A DNA stretch of 21,067 nucleotides, taken from the IMG/VR virus record IMGVR_UViG_3300025284_000061, positions 1 through 21,067 of that record. One strand, written 5' to 3'. This DNA comes from a virus. Made by a program: the position numbers and the translations under genes. Positions 1 to 18,115 of this stretch are shown here, in pieces (the first letter of the stretch is position 1; each line of letters opens with the position of its first letter). The notes below the pieces were generated by a model. That model was not told the origin of the DNA. It was given only the letters and a program-made list of their open reading frames with translations, and searched no databases.

Positions 1-477
1 CCCGCCGCGCCTGCCGCCCCGGCGGACGAGGTCGCGGCGCTGCGGGCCGCGCTCGAGGCCAAGGACGGCGAGATCGCCGCGCTGACCGCCCGGCTGCGCG
101 ACGCCGAGCTGAGCCCGGCCCGGCTGGATGAGGCGGTGGCCGCCCGCGCCCTCCTGCTGGCCGAGGCCCGGCGGATCGGCGGAGAGACGCTGGCGGTCGA
201 GGGCCGCGGTGAAGCCGAGATCCGCCGCGCCGCCGTGGCCGCCCGGATCGGCGACGCCACTGTCCGCGCCATGAGCGACGCCGCGATCGAGGGCGCCTTC
301 CGGGTGCTGGCCGCCCCGACCGGTCCCGCGGGCCCGGCGGGCCCCGCCCGGCCCGACCCGCTGCGGCAGGTCCTGGCCGAGCGGCCGGTCTCGGGCGACG
401 CCCGGGCCGAGGCGCTGCGCCGGCGCGACGCCCGCCTGACCGGTGCCTGGAGAACCACCGCTTCCACTGCGGCTTGA
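1..477 (+). CDS. DUF2213-type phage head protein, C-terminal part (5' end outside window)
   Basis: The frame is open from base 1 to a TGA at 475-477, so only the last 158 residues are seen. The visible part starts Ala/Pro-rich, continues with a charged helical stretch (EVAALRAALEAKDGEIAAL) that should form a coiled coil, then an ARALLLAEARRIGG-like segment and a Gly/Pro/Ala-rich linker around residues 100-120. This pattern, together with the position just upstream of cement and capsid genes, matches the C-terminal half of DUF2213 phage proteins. These sit where a prohead protease or scaffold is expected, so a role in capsid assembly is likely but inferred. The protein ends LTGAW plus a few residues, directly before the palindromic element, so the last residues may have been altered by an insertion. 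Confidence 0.65.
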   Translation, partial: PAAPAAPADEVAALRAALEAKDGEIAALTARLRDAELSPARLDEAVAARALLLAEARRIGGETLAVEGRGEAEIRRAAVAARIGDATVRAMSDAAIEGAFRVLAAPTGPAGPAGPARPDPLRQVLAERPVSGDARAEALRRRDARLTGAWRTTASTAA

Positions 478-620
478 GTGTCCGTTCCGGAACTCTACTC
501 CGACGGCCATCTGACGCGGTTTTCTCCGCTTCCGGTGCTCACGGACTCGAACGTCCGCTGCGCGCCGGGTCTCGAAAACCACGCCAGCTGACTCGTCGGA
601 GCGACTTCCGAAACGGACAC
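478..620. repeat. 143-nt imperfect palindrome (long hairpin) in the gap before the cement gene
   Basis: Pairing by eye: 478-486 with 612-620, 488-492 with 606-610, 498-506 with 593-601, 511-513 with 585-587, 515-516 with 582-583, 518-524 with 574-580, 532-538 with 562-568, and an apical stem 542-546 with 553-557 around a 6-nt loop. About 45 pairs form with only single mismatches or short internal loops, so nearly the whole gap folds back on itself. It begins right after the upstream stop codon and ends 34 nt before the next ATG. There is no T-tract, so it is not a classical terminator. It could be a MITE-like or intergenic palindromic repeat, or a structured leader or processing site of the capsid mRNA. 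No second copy was seen in the window. Confidence 0.8.
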
Positions 621-654: not shown

Positions 655-1128
655 ATGGCCGTCGTGCAGAACAGCTACAGCGAGACCATGCGCCCGGCCG
701 TCGCCGGCATGGTCGCCAACCTGACCAATGCCGATGCCGACACCCGCATCGTCGAGACCGCCGCCGGCATCGGCTTCGGCCTCGCCGTCGGCCAGGGTGC
801 CGCCGCCAAGGGGGCCGTGCTGGGCGCCGCCGCGGCCGCCGGCTTCGTCGGCATCTCGATCCGCGACGTCGTGCTCGACCCGCGCGACGGCGACATCTAC
901 CGGCAGGGCGCCAGCAGCGCCGTCCTGACCGAGGGCGACATCTGGGTGGTGACCGGCGGCGCCGTCGCGGCCGGCGACAACGTCGTGTTCGAGGCCGCGA
1001 CCGGCATCCTGTCCAGCCTGCCGGCCGATGCCACCCATTTCGCCATCGCCGGCGCCCGCTGGATGACCGGCGCCGCCAATGGCGGCCTGGCCGTGGTGCG
1101 CCTGGGCGGCGCGCTGCCCTCGGTCTGA
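655..1128 (+). CDS. Phage structural cement / capsid decoration protein (gp24-like)
   Basis: 157 residues, preceded by a strong AAGGAGA ribosome site about 8 nt upstream of the ATG. The protein is Ala/Gly/Val-rich with alternating beta-type segments and typical cement motifs: an N-terminal MRPAVAGMVAN stretch, a central VVLDPRDGDIYRQG and an EGDIWVVTGGAVAAGDNV segment near residues 90-110, as seen in small beta-rich proteins that bind the outside of phage capsids. It lies directly before the major capsid gene, the usual position for this family. It probably stabilises the expanded head by binding between capsomers. The assignment rests on sequence style and position, and no search was run. 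Confidence 0.75.
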   Translation: MAVVQNSYSETMRPAVAGMVANLTNADADTRIVETAAGIGFGLAVGQGAAAKGAVLGAAAAAGFVGISIRDVVLDPRDGDIYRQGASSAVLTEGDIWVVTGGAVAAGDNVVFEAATGILSSLPADATHFAIAGARWMTGAANGGLAVVRLGGALPSV

Positions 1129-1169: not shown

Positions 1170-2123
1170 ATGTTCGCATTCGACGCCCAGCAGGCGCTGG
1201 GCTTCCTCGTCTCCCAGACCGCCAGCATCGAGGCGCAGGTCTACGAGATCCAGTATCCCGACATCCAGTATCCGGCGCTGCTGCCGGTCGACACCTCGGC
1301 CAATCCCTGGGCCAAGAGCGTCACCTTCTTCTCCACCGACAAGGTCGGCCAGGCCGACTGGATCAATCACCAGGCCAAGGACATCCCGCTCGCCGATGTG
1401 GAGCGCGCGCAGCACGATCATCCGATCGAGATGGCGGCGATCGGCTACCGCTATACGCTGCAGGAGCTGGGCCAGGCGATGATGGTGCCGGGCACCAATC
1501 TTTCGGCGGATCGGGCCGCGGCAGCCGTCCGCGCCTATGAGGAGTTCATGGACGGCCTCGCCCTGCGCGGCGTGCCGCCGAACGGCGTCGTCAAGGGCTG
1601 GACCGGCCTGATCAACGACCCGAACGTCACCGCGGGCCCTGTCCTCAATGACGGCAGCGGGGCATCGACCCTGTGGGCCGACAAGACCCCCGACCAGATC
1701 CTGCGCGACATCAACGCCCTGCTGACCGGCGTCTATCAGGGGTCGCTCACGGTGGAGATGGCGGACACGCTGCTGCTGCCGGTGGCCCGGTTCACCGCCC
1801 TGGCCGACACGCCGCGCAGCGGCTTCTCCGACACGACCATCCTCGAGTATCTGCGCCGCAACAACACCTACACCGCGATCACCGGCGCGCCGCTGACGAT
1901 CCGGGCCGTGCGCGGGCTGGAGAATGCCGGGGCCGGCAACGCCGCGCGGATGGTCGCCTATCGCCGCGACCCGCAGGTGGTCCGGCTGCACCTGCCGATG
2001 CCGCATCAGTTCCTGGCGCCGTCGCCGTCCGGTCCGCTGTCATTCGACGTTCCGGGCATCTTCCGCACCGGCGGGGTCGAGATCCGGCGTCCGAAGGCCT
2101 TCCGCTACGCCGACGGCATCTGA
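1170..2123 (+). CDS. Major capsid protein (DUF2184 family)
   Basis: 317 residues. The start is the ATG at 1170, preceded by GAAGGAG; the open frame extends much further upstream, but that part lacks coding bias and overlaps the cement gene. The sequence has the features of DUF2184 capsid proteins: an N-terminal helical arm, the QYPALLPVDTSANPWAKSVTFF segment near residues 30-50, a charged DIPLADV stretch, the long spine-like helix region around residues 110-135 (AAAAVRAYEEFMDGLALRG), and a C-terminal domain ending in VPGIFRTGGVEIRRPKAFRYADGI-type sequence. It should fold as an HK97-type capsid subunit and form the icosahedral shell. Neighbours (cement protein before, connectors after) agree fully. 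Confidence 0.88.
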   Translation: MFAFDAQQALGFLVSQTASIEAQVYEIQYPDIQYPALLPVDTSANPWAKSVTFFSTDKVGQADWINHQAKDIPLADVERAQHDHPIEMAAIGYRYTLQELGQAMMVPGTNLSADRAAAAVRAYEEFMDGLALRGVPPNGVVKGWTGLINDPNVTAGPVLNDGSGASTLWADKTPDQILRDINALLTGVYQGSLTVEMADTLLLPVARFTALADTPRSGFSDTTILEYLRRNNTYTAITGAPLTIRAVRGLENAGAGNAARMVAYRRDPQVVRLHLPMPHQFLAPSPSGPLSFDVPGIFRTGGVEIRRPKAFRYADGI

Positions 2124-3215: not shown

Positions 3216-3616
3216 CCCGCGTCATCGGCGTCGACCAGCATCTCCGGCAATTGACGCAAAGGGCCAAGGCCGTCCGCCGGGAGGTCGGCAAGGCCGTGGC
3301 GGCTGCGGCGGAGCTGGTCGCAGCGGAGGCGGTGGCCAGCATCACCGCCGACTGGATCAGCGGGCCGGACCATGTCCCGTCCGATCCGGGCGAGCCGCCG
3401 AATGCCGATACCGGCCGGCTGCACCGCGCGATCGCAGTCGTGCGCCGGGGAGATCTGTCGGCCGACGTGGTCTCGGCCGCGCCTTATGCCGATCTCGAAT
3501 TCGGCACCGCCCGCGTGGCGGCGCGTCCCTATCTGCGACCGGCCACCGCGAAGAAGCGGCAGGACGCGGTCGCGCTGATCGTCCAGGCCGTCCGGCGAGG
3601 CCGGGCGGTCGACTGA
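3212..3616 (+). CDS. HK97 gp10-like tail completion / connector protein
   Basis: 134 residues; its ATG overlaps the stop of the previous gene (ATGA), which implies translational coupling. The N-terminal half is one long amphipathic helix (LRQLTQRAKAVRREVGKAV onward). It is followed by the family signature PSDPGEPPNADTGRLHRAI near residues 55-73 and YADLEFGTARVAARPYLRPA near residues 92-111, where the E-F-G-T and R-P-Y/F-L/M-R-P blocks are diagnostic for HK97-gp10-like proteins. These proteins join the finished head to the tail. The assignment is firm from motif order and context. Confidence 0.85.
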   Translation: MTRVIGVDQHLRQLTQRAKAVRREVGKAVAAAAELVAAEAVASITADWISGPDHVPSDPGEPPNADTGRLHRAIAVVRRGDLSADVVSAAPYADLEFGTARVAARPYLRPATAKKRQDAVALIVQAVRRGRAVD

Positions 3617-5400: not shown

Positions 5401-5769
5401 TCAGTGTCGGCAGATCGCCTCCACTGCGTCGGCGGCGGCGGAGATCTGCGCGATCCGCTCATCCGAGCCCTCATTGAGGGCGTCGCTCACCGCGTGGAAC
5501 CGGCCGGCGATCGTCTCGAGGGAGGCCTTCAACTCCGGACTTATTGTTTTCGCCATGGTGAGCTGCAGGATCAGGGCGGCAACCTGGGCCGCGTGCAAAC
5601 TCGCTGCCTTGACCTGTTGGAGGGAGGCGATCTGCGCGGTGATGCCGGCGTTGATCCCGAGGGAGAGCGCTTGGCACTGCTGCGGGGTTTGCCCGGCGGC
5701 CGGCAGAGACACGGCGGCCGCCAGCAGGATCGCGGGCATAGCCATTCGGTGTCGTCTAAAGTTGTGCAT
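5401..5769 (-). CDS. Exported small helical protein, antisense to the tail operon (probable moron)
   Basis: 122 residues on the minus strand. A signal peptide is clear: a basic N-terminus (MHNFRRHRMAMP), a hydrophobic core AILLAAAVSLPAAG, then mature sequence. The mature part is alpha-helical and rich in Ala, Gln, Ile and Leu, with two cysteines, one at about residue 32 in QQCQAL and one in the last four residues, so a disulphide tying both ends is possible. An AT-rich patch lies just upstream (5770-5800), unlike the surrounding genes. The gene interrupts the chaperone-to-tape-measure junction, where phages normally keep genes contiguous, so it is probably a later insertion expressed in the lysogen. 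I do not recognise the family. A periplasmic role is inferred from the signal peptide. Start codons at residues 9 or 11 are also possible. Confidence 0.68.
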   Translation of the reverse strand: MHNFRRHRMAMPAILLAAAVSLPAAGQTPQQCQALSLGINAGITAQIASLQQVKAASLHAAQVAALILQLTMAKTISPELKASLETIAGRFHAVSDALNEGSDERIAQISAAADAVEAICRH

Positions 5770-13418: not shown

Positions 13419-14153
13419 ATGGCCACCCCGAACGTCGACGAGATCTGGGCGGACTACAACCCCGACGGCTCGACTCATGAGCCGAACAAGGTGGATGTCC
13501 GCCGCTGGGGCCGGTTCCTCGAGGCCATCACCACTGCCGCCGGCATGGAGACCTATCCCAACAAAGTGGCGATGGATGCCGACCTGACGCAGGCGGATGG
13601 CCAGCCGGCGCTGCTGTGGTCCGATCCGACCCCGGCCAACAACTTCCCGACCGTCTGGGTCTACAACGACGCCACCAACAGCTGGATCGCCGGCACCGAT
13701 CGTATTCAGTCGCTGAAGGATCTCGTCGACCTGATGCACGCTACCATGCGTCGGGTCGTGGTGCTGTCGAACGAGATCATCATCGACCGTCTCAACGTGC
13801 TCGGCGGCGGCACCTGGCAGGTCTACATCCCGCGCGCGATCTTTATCGACACCCCAGGCGCGACGGCGAGCAACATCACGGCCGCCAACGCCGACAGCAT
13901 CGAAAAGCCCGGCTGGTGCAAGCTGACGATCCCCACGACCCCGACATCCTTACGGAGCTTCGTCTACCTCGACCGGGCCGACAACACCTTCAAAATCAGC
14001 GGCGCGACCGGCGGCGACTTCACGCTGCCGACGACGGGGGTGGATCAGATCGTCCCGATCATCACATTTCCGGCCACGAGCGCCGGCTATTGTCGCCATA
14101 CCAGGCCCGCGACCTCAGCCCGGCCAGCCAGACCACGGGCTTCGCGCCGTTGA
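13419..14153 (+). CDS. Tail fibre, N-terminal attachment part (frameshifted before the esterase part)
   Basis: The frame begins at an ATG with GGAG about ten bases upstream and ends at TGA 14151-14153 (244 residues). Residues 1-100 follow the common fibre attachment pattern: THEPNKVDVRRWGRFLEAI, YPNKVAMDADLTQADGQPAL and then NNFPTVWVYNDATNSWI. From about 14099 the codons of this frame lose GC-ended bias and give an Arg/Pro/Ala-rich tail (TRPATSARPARPRASRR), whereas the -1 frame becomes fully coding. The true product is therefore probably one 918-residue protein spanning 13419-16174, broken by one base lost near 14090-14098, or by a sequencing error. No slippery heptamer is visible, so programmed frameshifting is less likely. 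Confidence 0.7.
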   Translation: MATPNVDEIWADYNPDGSTHEPNKVDVRRWGRFLEAITTAAGMETYPNKVAMDADLTQADGQPALLWSDPTPANNFPTVWVYNDATNSWIAGTDRIQSLKDLVDLMHATMRRVVVLSNEIIIDRLNVLGGGTWQVYIPRAIFIDTPGATASNITAANADSIEKPGWCKLTIPTTPTSLRSFVYLDRADNTFKISGATGGDFTLPTTGVDQIVPIITFPATSAGYCRHTRPATSARPARPRASRR

Positions 14154-14158
14154 CGCCG

Positions 14159-16174
14159 ATGGTCCACAGCCGGGCCGAGAACAAGGTGCTGATCCCCAGC
14201 GCCACGGTCCGCAGCGAGACGGCGATCTTCAGCCACACGGTGGCGGCGACCGACCGCTACGAGACCTTCGACACGACGGCGTCGAACACCGCCATCATCA
14301 CCTATTGGTGGGACTTCCGGACTGGCGTGAATCAGTACAAGGCCACCGTCGGCGGCGCCACGCCATTCCAGGTCGACCCGACGACCGGCATCCTGATCGG
14401 CTGGAGCTGGGGCGGCGAGTTCTTCTCGCCCTGGCCGCACATCGGCCGCATGGGGCAGGGGCTTGGCAAGAACGACTTTGCCTGGGGCAAGGGCGACCGT
14501 CTGCTGTCATCTCCCTTCGTGTGGGAGAACAAGCCATCGCGGCTGGAGATGGTCGACGTGGCCGACGCGGCGCTGATCGCCGCCGGCTTCGGCCGCGCCA
14601 TCCGCTCGATCGATTCCGCCTTGGCGTGGCCCTACGTCGGCGACAAAATCCCGGACAATCGAGCCGGCAAGCCATTCTTCGCCCGGATCTGGCTAGAGGC
14701 AATTGTCGACAACACCTATGGTGCTCCGACCATCAGGTTCCTGAAGTCCAACGGAACGACTGCGCAGAGCATCCCGCTGGTGCTAGAGAAGACGATCTCG
14801 AATCGGGCGGCGATATACAGCATCGCCTCGACGGTACCGGACTGGCAGGTCAACAACCCGGGCGCCGGTGAGTACAGCTATGTGCTGCTCGGCACCGGCC
14901 TGTCCGGCGGGACGCCGGAGGTTCGCGTTGCCGGCGTGCAGTACGCCTTCGGCCAGGGTGCGCAATGGGTCGAGAGGAACGACTTTCCGACGACCCCGGC
15001 GAACGGCATCCGCCTCTCCAACCTGGAGGCCCAGGCGACGGTGACCGATCCGGTGCCGTCGATCCTCTACGGCGAAGATCTGTGGCTGATCCTGGGCCGA
15101 AAACAGTCGCTGCACATCGATAACCTCTATGAGAAGCGGACCGAGCGGAAGGGCGTGCTGACAACCCTGTTCGCCCCCAATCCGAACATCAACGACCTCG
15201 CCGCCAAGCCATATGAACAGACGAAGGAGGCGGGCTCCTTCATCATCGACCCGGTCGAGCTGGGCGCCAGCGCAAACCTGTGGGCGCATCGCTACAGCGA
15301 TGCCGCCGGCGGCGCGGGGCTCGGCCGGTCCTATCGATCGGCGGCCATCACAGTTCATAAGGCTGCGATGTCTGGTGTCGGCGCGGTTCGCGTGATGGGC
15401 ATCGGCGACAGCATTATGTCGCAGACGCTTTCCCTATATGTTCAGACGATCCTATCGGACCGCGGCAATTCGGTGACGATGTCCGGCACATGCGGCCTGA
15501 ACGAGGGGCGCCCAGGCTCGACCATCGCCGACCATATTCGGGCCCGCACCAGCTATCTGACGCCGGTCACCAGCTTCGCCAGTTATCTCGCGGCGACCCC
15601 GGCCGAGAAACAATTGATGGACCCATGGACTCGCCCGTCGGTCGGCGGCGACCCAGCCGGCTCGATCTACAATGGCCGCATTTACGACTTTTCTTACTAT
15701 CTGACCGGCACCGGCATCACGCCGCCGACACACGTCTGGATCTGCCTCGGCACCAATGACATCGGCTCATATACGCCGAGCGAGGCAGCGGAGTGGATCG
15801 AGAAGGGGATCACCATCATGGTGGGCTCAATCCTGGCGGCAGTGCCGGGGGTTAAGATCGCTCTCGCGCTGCCAACCCTGCCGCGGATGGCTGCCGGCGA
15901 CACCCGCTGGAACGATGCCTATGGCCCGGCGCTGCGGAAGATCTTGAAGTTCAAACGGACGCTGGCCAACCCGCAGGTCAAGGTGCTGCCGATCTGGGCG
16001 CACATCAACCAAGTCACGGCTTTCGCCAGCAACGAGGTGGTGGTCTCGACTGACGCCGACACCGGCATGCAAACGCTGGACAACGGCGACATGTTGCACC
16101 CTTCGCAGGCCGGCGTGCATCAGTACGCTGAGGTGGTGGCGGCCTGGGTGGCGAACACCTTCGACGGGACCTGA
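14159..16174 (+). CDS. Tail fibre/spike C-terminal part with SGNH (GDSL) esterase domain
   Basis: 672 residues from the first ATG after the upstream stop; no ribosome site precedes it, so it is best read as the continuation of the 13419 gene. The first two thirds are beta-rich fibre sequence. The last about 260 residues form an SGNH hydrolase: block I VMGIGDSIM with the catalytic Ser at codon 15410-15412, block III CLGTNDIG with Gly 15749-15751 and Asn 15755-15757, and block V NGDMLHPSQAG with Asp 16088-16090 and His 16097-16099. Fibre-borne SGNH esterases usually remove acetyl groups from capsule or O-antigen sugars, so de-O-acetylation of the host surface is a reasonable inference. It lies next to a putative acetyltransferase and polymerase. 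Function may be lost if the frameshift is real. Confidence 0.78.
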   Translation: MVHSRAENKVLIPSATVRSETAIFSHTVAATDRYETFDTTASNTAIITYWWDFRTGVNQYKATVGGATPFQVDPTTGILIGWSWGGEFFSPWPHIGRMGQGLGKNDFAWGKGDRLLSSPFVWENKPSRLEMVDVADAALIAAGFGRAIRSIDSALAWPYVGDKIPDNRAGKPFFARIWLEAIVDNTYGAPTIRFLKSNGTTAQSIPLVLEKTISNRAAIYSIASTVPDWQVNNPGAGEYSYVLLGTGLSGGTPEVRVAGVQYAFGQGAQWVERNDFPTTPANGIRLSNLEAQATVTDPVPSILYGEDLWLILGRKQSLHIDNLYEKRTERKGVLTTLFAPNPNINDLAAKPYEQTKEAGSFIIDPVELGASANLWAHRYSDAAGGAGLGRSYRSAAITVHKAAMSGVGAVRVMGIGDSIMSQTLSLYVQTILSDRGNSVTMSGTCGLNEGRPGSTIADHIRARTSYLTPVTSFASYLAATPAEKQLMDPWTRPSVGGDPAGSIYNGRIYDFSYYLTGTGITPPTHVWICLGTNDIGSYTPSEAAEWIEKGITIMVGSILAAVPGVKIALALPTLPRMAAGDTRWNDAYGPALRKILKFKRTLANPQVKVLPIWAHINQVTAFASNEVVVSTDADTGMQTLDNGDMLHPSQAGVHQYAEVVAAWVANTFDGT

Positions 16175-16250
16175 TCGGCGATTGCGTTCGCCTTGTGGCG
16201 CGGGCACGATCCGCCCGTTGCGATGGTGGCCGGCGGGAGGGGCGGGCGGA

Positions 16251-16754
16251 GTGAAGCGCGTAATTCGGGCCCTGCTCCGCTCAGTGCCGGCGAGATTGTT
16301 GGTGCGCTGCCTCATGGTGGTAGGTCGCGCATCCTCAAGCCTGGCGAGCGCAGCCAAGACGGTCACGCTGTTCCCGCGATCGGAGGATTGCTTCTGCCAT
16401 TGGTCTGCGGAGGTAAAGAATCCCGGCTACATCACTCTTGGTCGGGGTGTAATCATTGGTCCGCGCTGTACGATCGGTGCCGCCTCGGCGATACAGCTCG
16501 GCGACCACGTGCACCTATCGAAAGGCGTCTATGTGGAGACCGCCGGTCTTGATTTCTCGGTTGCGGCGCCCTATCCGCATGTGCACAGGCCGATCGTGAT
16601 TGGTCAAGGCGTCTGGGTCGGCGCGGACGCAATCGTCCTCGGTGGCGTTACCATTGGTGATCGGGCGGTGATCGGCGCGGGCGCAGTCGTCAGCAAAGAC
16701 GTCCCGCCGGACACGATTGTAACCGGCCAGCCAATGCGGCAGAGGTCGAGGTGA
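16251..16754 (+). CDS. Hexapeptide-repeat acetyltransferase (possible surface polysaccharide O-acetyltransferase)
   Basis: 167 residues from GTG 16251, which has GGCGGA directly and GGGAGG further upstream; the frame is open from 16182, but those codons look non-coding. From about residue 60 the protein has the left-handed beta-helix repeats of the LbH/Xat group: ITLGRGVIIGPRCTIG, AIQLGDHVHLSKGVYV, then a loop with PYPHVHRPIVIGQGVWVGAD and VLGGVTIGDRAVIGAGAVV, ending with KDVPPDTIVTGQPM. The His pair in PHVHRP is in the usual catalytic loop. It transfers acetyl from acetyl-CoA, most likely to a sugar. It sits directly after the esterase fibre and beside a Wzy-like gene, so a role in surface modification of the lysogen is plausible. 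The substrate is unknown. Confidence 0.78.
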   Translation: MKRVIRALLRSVPARLLVRCLMVVGRASSSLASAAKTVTLFPRSEDCFCHWSAEVKNPGYITLGRGVIIGPRCTIGAASAIQLGDHVHLSKGVYVETAGLDFSVAAPYPHVHRPIVIGQGVWVGADAIVLGGVTIGDRAVIGAGAVVSKDVPPDTIVTGQPMRQRSR

Positions 16755-16760
16755 TGGACC

Positions 16761-18050
16761 TTAAGCTGCCATCTCGCGCCTGATCGCGTGCGGCCTGCTT
16801 CGCGTCACCACGACGGCAAGCCAGAAAACTCCGAACGCCAAATTGTAGAAGATGCCATAGGCGGACATGAAGGTGTTCACGACGATGGCCGATGCCACCT
16901 GCATGACGAAGGCAACATAAAGCGGAAGTACTGCTATCTCGCCGGCCAGCACTTGGCTGCGAATCCACGAGATGAGAGCCCCGAGCAGAAGACAAAAGAT
17001 TGGGGCGAAGGCGCCAAAGTCGACAAAGAACGGCCCGAACATCGTCGTATAGATGCCGACCCGCGGAGTCGACATCGTGACCAAGTTGCCATCGTAATCT
17101 AAGCCCCAAAGAGCATGGGCTAATCGGACAAAAATGGAAAAGGTATATCCACCCCACTGTTCGCCGTTATGATAGTGCTCGGTGAGATAAACGAATTCGG
17201 GAACGCCATGAAGAATATATTGAGCAAAAGTTGTTCCAATGAAAACTGTGTCACGCTCCCAATCGGAGAGATTTGTCACAAAACTGAAATAATCAGAAGT
17301 TACCGGAACCATGTGTGTGAAGGCAGATAGTTTGATTGATTTTTCTATATTCAATCCAAATTCGCTAATTCTAGCAATAAATAGAAGGTCACCAAGATAA
17401 AGAAGAGCTAAAACAAAGGCGACGCAGAACGCGATAATCATCTTTGATGTATGTGGAAAGATAATGAGGCGAGAGATTAAAAGCATTCCAATGCTCATGA
17501 ACATACTGGATCGGGAGCCAATCACGATGGTAAGAACAGGCCATAGCAGGGCCAATCCGATGCTCATCCATGCCCGGCCGACCCTAATGCCGTTCCGGCG
17601 TCCCACCGCGTGGAACATGTAAGGTGCCAGCGTGAAAGGTATCAGCAGCGTTGAGGCCATGGAGAAGGCACTAGCGCCAGCTGTCTCGATCTTCTCTCGA
17701 TTCTCGAAAAAGCCGACGTCGACGGACAAGCCGCGCAACACCGCCCAGTCGAAGATTCTGAGCCCGATGCCTAGTAATCCGAGCGCGAAGGTGACTCGGT
17801 ATAGGCGCGCCCACTCATCCGGATCCGCCGGCCGGCTCGTACGCGTACGTGATTCGAATAGTACTAGCCCCAAGAGCAGGCCAACCAGGCATCCACCAAG
17901 AAGGATGTAGGGATAGGTGGCAGGCGACGTGTACATCTCGACCGGCGCGAGCCAGTAGATGGCCAGCCAAGCTAGACACATCCACAGCAGCACGCTGGCA
18001 GGCGTCAATGCGCGAGGGTTGATCAGGCTGTATTCGGCAAGCCGGGTCAT
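16761..18050 (-). CDS. Wzy-like oligosaccharide repeat unit (O-antigen) polymerase
   Basis: Integral membrane protein of 429 residues from the ATG at 18050 (a TTG two codons earlier is possible). About ten to eleven hydrophobic helices can be picked out, for example LLWMCLAWLAIYWLA, YPYILLGGCLVGLLLGL and AWMSIGLALLWPVLTIVIG. Between the last group of helices lies a large loop of about 100 residues containing DYFSFVTNLSDWERDTVF, then FVYLTEHYHNGEQWGGYTF and STPRVGIYTTMFGPFFVDFG. This topology (many helices, one big periplasmic loop) is typical of Wzy polymerases, which join O-antigen or capsule units in the periplasm. It faces the acetyltransferase gene, with six bases between their stops. The middle (17160-17480) is AT-rich, unlike the ends, which suggests import. 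The sugar linkage made is unknown. Confidence 0.75.
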   Translation of the reverse strand: MTRLAEYSLINPRALTPASVLLWMCLAWLAIYWLAPVEMYTSPATYPYILLGGCLVGLLLGLVLFESRTRTSRPADPDEWARLYRVTFALGLLGIGLRIFDWAVLRGLSVDVGFFENREKIETAGASAFSMASTLLIPFTLAPYMFHAVGRRNGIRVGRAWMSIGLALLWPVLTIVIGSRSSMFMSIGMLLISRLIIFPHTSKMIIAFCVAFVLALLYLGDLLFIARISEFGLNIEKSIKLSAFTHMVPVTSDYFSFVTNLSDWERDTVFIGTTFAQYILHGVPEFVYLTEHYHNGEQWGGYTFSIFVRLAHALWGLDYDGNLVTMSTPRVGIYTTMFGPFFVDFGAFAPIFCLLLGALISWIRSQVLAGEIAVLPLYVAFVMQVASAIVVNTFMSAYGIFYNLAFGVFWLAVVVTRSRPHAIRREMAA

Positions 18051-18115
18051 GTGCAATTCGCCAGGATGAATCTAGCCGATCTTCGCTGCTCCCGACGGCG
18101 AATGCCAGCACCTTC

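Follow-up and report, generated by a model that had tools for sequence, protein, structure and literature searches.

The 143-nt palindrome at positions 478 to 620 of the window (the whole stretch of viral DNA analysed here, 21,067 nucleotides of IMG/VR record IMGVR_UViG_3300025284_000061) is very probably a non-autonomous, MITE-like element of the Inquilinus host that inserted into a prophage where the head protease gene has its stop codon. More tentatively, it may belong to a mobile family spread over the class Alphaproteobacteria, whose selected form would be a folded RNA or single-stranded DNA antisense to the gene hit, and which would target stop codons in one set orientation, be it on chromosomes, on plasmids or within prophages.

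The first base of the palindrome follows directly on the TGA of the protease gene, and its 3' edge lies 34 nt from the start of the cement gene (Table 1). Folded as RNA, the region from 470 to 660 reached -89.8 kcal/mol, compared with -66.9 +/- 4.2 in shuffled sequences (z -5.5), and 0 of 200 shuffles attained the native energy. By itself, the 143-nt sequence folded on the plus strand to -78.7 kcal/mol, with 54 pairs and an apical loop of 6 nt (z -7.8), and on the minus strand to -97.9 kcal/mol, with 56 pairs (z -11.7): of the two strands of the window copy, the minus strand is the better folder. The sequence folds from end to end. An earlier note on this DNA was thus right that the palindrome is real, pairs with itself, abuts the upstream stop codon, and has a 6-nt apical loop and no T-tract; its count of about 45 base pairs was too low. 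One refuting condition set by the note, a folding energy no lower than that of shuffled sequence, is contradicted by these energies. Our sequence scan found no T-tract and no terminator-like, promoter-like or sigma-70-like site within the window copy or next to it. A Rho-independent terminator was rejected because the T-tract after the stem is missing.

Table 1. Features of the window; for the element, plus means oriented like its conserved apical core and like the upstream gene.
Feature	Position	Strand	Basis or remark
Head maturation protease, C-terminal part	1..477	+	phrog_530; element at its stop
Protease TGA stop abutting the element	475..477	+	Identical stop at the empty site of relatives
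Mobile palindromic element (probable)	478..620	+	Folding, homologous copies, empty site in relatives
Strand whose fold appears conserved	478..620	-	56 pairs, -97.9 vs -78.7 kcal/mol (plus)
Conserved apical core CGCTTCCGGTGCTCACG...CGCTGCGCGCCGG	527..568	+	Common to copies across Alphaproteobacteria
Structural cement protein, 3' of the element	655..1128	+	PF22758
Major capsid protein	1170..2123	+	PF09950; no element copy at its stop in the window

The gene upstream of the palindrome had been called DUF2213-type; we found no Pfam match for it, and it matched a head maturation protease family instead. The gene downstream does encode a cement protein, as the note had it. The capsid protein of the window is 83-97% identical to those of contigs of Inquilinus limosus and of 'Mycobacterium sp. 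KBS0706', and 98% identical to that of IMG/VR contig L002; by these identities, the window is a fragment of an Inquilinus prophage. The organism name of the KBS0706 record (NZ_VCCH02000057.1; our contig L065, genome G004) is probably wrong, as this genome carries an Inquilinus-type prophage and many copies of the Inquilinus element. Several other genes of the window deserve mention. A hexapeptide acyltransferase gene and, on the opposite strand, a gene for a hydrophobic protein without a Pfam match occupy 16182-18056, where modification of surface glycans by the prophage is possible. A large phage protein with a GDSL-type hydrolase domain at its C-terminus is encoded at 13619-16171. Finally, a small ORF with a signal-like N-terminus lies on the minus strand at 5401-5769, opposite to the tail gene block that surrounds it, and a similar stretch is present in contig L005.

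Related prophages provided empty sites at the position of the window copy. The gap between protease and cement genes contains no palindrome in contigs L002, L003, L004, L006-L011, L062 and L063: here the cement gene's short leader comes immediately after the protease stop. L002 is empty despite its nearly identical capsid protein. Contigs L005 and L064 start downstream of this junction, which is therefore unreadable in them. In L065, a different palindromic repeat (GTCATTCCCGCGAAAGCGGGAATC..., positions 3221-3530) fills the gap, which has thus received two unrelated repeats. Since the relatives with a readable junction all lack the palindrome, we infer an insertion in the window's lineage rather than a conserved leader. 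The stretch is noncoding in the relatives, which goes against the second refuting condition of the note, conserved coding sequence. At another site, the stop of the major capsid gene, six prophage relatives carry a copy of the element, and eight members, including the window, do not.

These observations bear directly on one of the two readings that the earlier note had offered, namely a structured leader that controls expression of the capsid genes. A conserved leader or terminator of the phage would account for the site, just before the cement and capsid genes, and for the very stable fold. However, the structure is missing from every readable relative and has no match among the named phage records of INPHARED; it has no T-tract or terminator-like site, and other copies follow unrelated chromosomal and plasmid genes. 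The empty sites already refute this reading, and we consider it extremely improbable.

The other reading, a mobile repeat of the MITE type, has good support from tens of dispersed copies per Inquilinus genome, from empty sites in related prophages and sister chromosomes, and from a 3-bp target duplication, such that the note's interpretation as a whole is partly supported. Both the multiple copies and the prophages without the palindrome that the note had suggested looking for were found, in Inquilinus and its relatives. Each of four Inquilinus genomes holds at least 30-40 copies; for the Inquilinus genome G001, the count reaches at least 56, including 16 additional ones that were read individually. 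The element is 143 nt long and noncoding, and in the 67 copies that we aligned its arms are paired from end to end, as is characteristic of MITEs. A GACTC site (GANTC, CcrM-type) is invariant in these 67 Inquilinus copies, at window-row positions 113-117 of the alignment, and is not kept in the wider family. In seven copies (L100, L124, L129, L130, L134, L135, L137), GGACTCGAAGCTTCCGG or a similar sequence replaces the usual segment of the 5' arm; it looks like a copied motif of the 3' arm, which suggests that arms, or different copies, have exchanged sequence. Another abundant palindromic repeat (CTCTCCCGCTTGCGGGAGAGGTCG...) also has many copies in all four Inquilinus genomes, for example near position 79500 of G001:C20.

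The family extends beyond Inquilinus. Related copies occur elsewhere in the prophage relatives and on plasmids of Sphingobium, Shinella, Phyllobacterium and others, and the copies in chromosomes and plasmids follow unrelated genes. Of 289 genomes of the class searched with a covariance model, at least 16 had the family, few candidates having been scored in each; BLAST with the consensus detected it in 19 of 385. Unrelated alphaproteobacterial genomes show the architecture and length again, and the core and the length of about 143 nt recur in small AT-rich genomes. Rfam gave no match at the gathering score, and a sub-threshold match to Afu_513, a fungal snoRNA, was taken as chance. The core sequence was not found in print in the literature searched, nor was RIME1 found in that search.

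The ends of the copies indicate how insertion takes place. The 85 copies examined typically end in GAG...CTC and are flanked by 3-bp TNA duplications; left and right duplications were TGA/TGA in 25 copies, TCA/TCA in four and TTA/TTA in two, and the aligned ends of the 67-copy set read GAGACC...GGTCTC. We joined the flanks of 12 copies and searched for them in sister genomes, obtaining 13 junction-spanning matches at seven sites. Most of these are clean empty sites; in the match between L115 and L175, the junction alignment was not clean. In the clearest pair, the filled site L087 reads GGCGAGGCC-TGA-[GAGACC...GGTCTC]-TGA-CCGCC, and the empty site L162, 98% identical to it, reads GGCGAGGCC-TGA-CCGCC. 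This pair shows a precise insertion into a stop codon with duplication of the 3-bp TGA. The window copy itself ends in GTG...CAC, unlike the usual family ends (L101 shares the GTG...CAC ends), and shows no visible target duplication, its right flank being CCG; its own insertion mechanism is thus deduced from its sisters.

With regard to the mobilising enzyme, genome G004 contains a 904-bp IS5-family element (NF033580) with a TTA duplication. Its ends, GAG[T/G]CCTTTTGGAAAATC, are similar but not identical to those of the palindromic element, GAGACCGTTTGGAAATGC, and it was found in this one of the four Inquilinus genomes. TNA duplication is a feature of the IS1031 group of the IS5 family, and on the strength of the TNA duplication the mobiliser may resemble this group. 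Together, the GAG...CTC ends, the TNA duplications and the similar-ended IS5 element suggest mobilisation by a transposase of that kind. The four Inquilinus genomes yielded no transposase-bearing element with exactly the ends of the palindrome, and the terminal arms vary far more than transposase binding sites usually do. Two further candidates were rejected: a larger autonomous element with the same arms, since nearly all extra arms that we inspected belonged to other palindrome copies, and the PF13586 transposases, which are present in G004 only.

We also considered a REP-type palindrome moved by a RAYT (Y1) transposase. The element resembles REPs in being extragenic, multi-copy, palindromic and close to stop codons, and G001 and G003 have one Y1 gene each. 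On the other hand, it is 143 nt long rather than 20-40 nt, carries no GTAG/CGTC tag at its ends and makes a 3-bp target duplication. Moreover, no Y1 gene was found in G002, G004 and G006, three of the five copy-rich genomes, and no element copies were found beside the Y1 genes. RAYT-mediated movement is thus largely refuted and, in our judgement, very unlikely.

The association with stop codons is not limited to the window. Of 85 Inquilinus-centred copies, 57 have the in-frame stop of a long ORF at their 5' edge in the sense direction, and eight have one at their 3' edge in the antisense direction. The 16 further copies had a sense stop in 11 cases and only an antisense stop in two. Copies from diverse alphaproteobacterial prophages, recruited by an exact 17-mer, had a sense in-frame stop over the left arm in 52 of 61 cases and an antisense one in six (control 4.2%). 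For 24 class-wide copies, the counts were 17 sense and 9 antisense, seven of them both (control 8.7%). Annotation agrees with the sense stop for the copy at dmpG on a Sphingobium herbicidovorans plasmid and for that on a Shinella plasmid, where an aldehyde dehydrogenase gene lies upstream; on a Phyllobacterium plasmid, the neighbouring gene is on the other strand.

Such an association could reflect pure tolerance: any TNA site is hit, and only insertions that spare genes survive. Intergenic gaps are short and poor in TNA, and with 62 copies placed uniformly over noncoding TNA sites in 200,000 simulations, 40.3 were already expected at stop codons, an expectation that is too high, as downstream ORFs had been extended to the element edge; the gene calls were crude. 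Much of the coincidence, but not all of it, thus follows from the scarcity of TNA in GC-rich DNA: this null already places about 65% of copies at stop codons, and much of the coincidence may be passive. However, 53 of the 62 copies were observed at stop codons, and no simulation reached as high. Tolerance also does not predict the orientation, 47 sense to 6 antisense in the 62-copy set and 52 to 6 in the prophage set, a bias that is already present among intact duplications (25 TGA to 4 TCA). Because TNA is symmetric, the target alone does not explain this one-sidedness. We therefore regard tolerance as a possible but rather doubtful explanation for the whole of the association.

Copies of the element also differ between their two strands. 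RNAalifold found compensatory double changes at 22 of 42 pairs in the 67-copy alignment. The minimum free energy was lower for the antisense than for the sense strand in 67 of 67 Inquilinus copies (-97.4 vs -75.9), 56 of 61 prophage copies (-78.4 vs -66.9) and all 24 class-wide copies, that is, in 147 of 152. The difference resides in the outer arms (67 of 67 Inquilinus and 53 of 61 prophage copies), the core being neutral. Over the 57 pairs of the antisense fold in 67 copies, 3230 cells were Watson-Crick, 476 sense A.C and 22 sense G.U; without the majority-mismatch pairs (conserved wobbles), sense A.C still outnumbered sense G.U by 148 to 22, although all these counts overstate the number of independent events because copies share ancestry. 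Since a sense A.C is a G.U on the antisense strand, the antisense fold tolerates the observed changes. At one orthologous phage site in six relatives, we found four compensatory pairs, with 46 sense A.C and 7 sense G.U cells.

Unexpectedly, what covariation preserves in these alignments is the pairing of the antisense strand, as seen from the upstream gene. Such strand-specific pairing implies selection on one strand, as RNA or single-stranded DNA; a DNA cruciform would be symmetric. The G.U and A.C counts rule out selection on the sense RNA. Quasipalindrome correction as the sole source of covariation cannot hold A.C at the same positions in nearly all copies, and cytosine deamination on the sense strand predicts the opposite asymmetry. 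Nor does DNA transposition explain the asymmetry, as no folded single strand is needed there.

A structured antisense RNA or single-stranded DNA may be the functional unit, with copies retained at gene 3' ends for what the fold does: 3'-end formation or insulation for antisense or convergent transcription, protein binding, or a mobility step through single-stranded DNA. The proposal does not conflict with mobility, but would assign the copies a function in their own right. The better antisense folding in nearly all copies, its location in the arms rather than the core, the excess of A.C over G.U, the compensatory changes at one fixed phage site and the recurrence of architecture and length in unrelated genomes of the class all argue for it. 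Against it, no promoter-like site lies within the window copy or next to it, Rfam offers no match, and changes were inherited between copies, such that the cell counts are not independent. We view it as an open possibility, short of a favoured one.

For the MITE-like insertion that we prefer, the steps may be pictured as follows. An IS5-family transposase resembling those of the IS1031 group would move the Inquilinus copies. In GC-rich DNA, stop codons would be the TNA sites most readily available for a harmless hit, because the duplication restores the stop. A single-stranded antisense form, more likely RNA than DNA, would be under selection. With the element in place, sense transcripts of the protease gene would have a very stable hairpin 0 nt past the stop codon, which, by analogy with REPs, may reduce expression of that gene.

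Clustering of MITEs and REPs at gene 3' ends was already known. The empty sites show insertion into the stop itself with restoration by duplication, and thus offer a simple, testable reason for this clustering. The G.U and A.C counts tell which strand's fold is selected, namely that opposite to the gene. If transcripts or single-stranded DNA bear this out, a class of 'junk' palindromes would become a system whose strand and target are defined. Our data further indicate that host elements enter prophage structural operons repeatedly, at stop codons.

Among known systems, IS5-family MITEs share with the element the GAG...CTC ends, the 3-bp TNA duplication, the noncoding and multi-copy nature and a similar-ended IS5 element in an Inquilinus genome; the element differs in its widely varying, covarying terminal arms, its class-wide core and its conserved antisense fold. 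Integron attC sites are imperfect palindromes that follow stop codons in a fixed orientation, fold as the bottom strand and have a structure that outlasts sequence. The resemblance lies only in how the two would work: the element's ends lack core sites, it has a 3-bp target duplication and it carries no cassette. Identity with attC was rejected, as the terminal RYYYAAC / GTTRRRY is missing. REPs and GTAG-REPs are likewise extragenic palindromes near stop codons; GTAG-REP ends often provide a TAG stop to flanking ORFs (PMC3733652; RepRanger, PMC12306157), and work cited in PMC12306157 has REPs within 15 nt of a stop lowering translation. They differ from the element in length and tag, and no Y1 partner was found with it. 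QMITE2 of Coxiella burnetii, a MITE of 150-190 bp located mainly at gene 3' ends for a reason that its authors call unknown (PMC5896051), is similar in length and placement as far as descriptions can be compared, but makes 7-11 nt duplications of variable sequence and contains a GTAG REP. The CIR repeats of Caulobacter and Brucella (Chen and Shapiro 2003), which according to PMC2229807 consist of two arms with a linker between them, are also long alphaproteobacterial intergenic inverted repeats and share GANTC with the Inquilinus copies; by description, they are set apart by their arms-and-linker layout and by the loss of GACTC in the wider element family. Br-REP1/2 of Bradyrhizobium are alphaproteobacterial palindromes in 3' UTRs (PMC5082802), but are short and have other consensus sequences. 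Compared with these systems, the MITE-like element is ordinary in kind; what is uncommon, and testable, is that it enters stop codons in a single orientation and that the fold conserved is that of the opposite strand.
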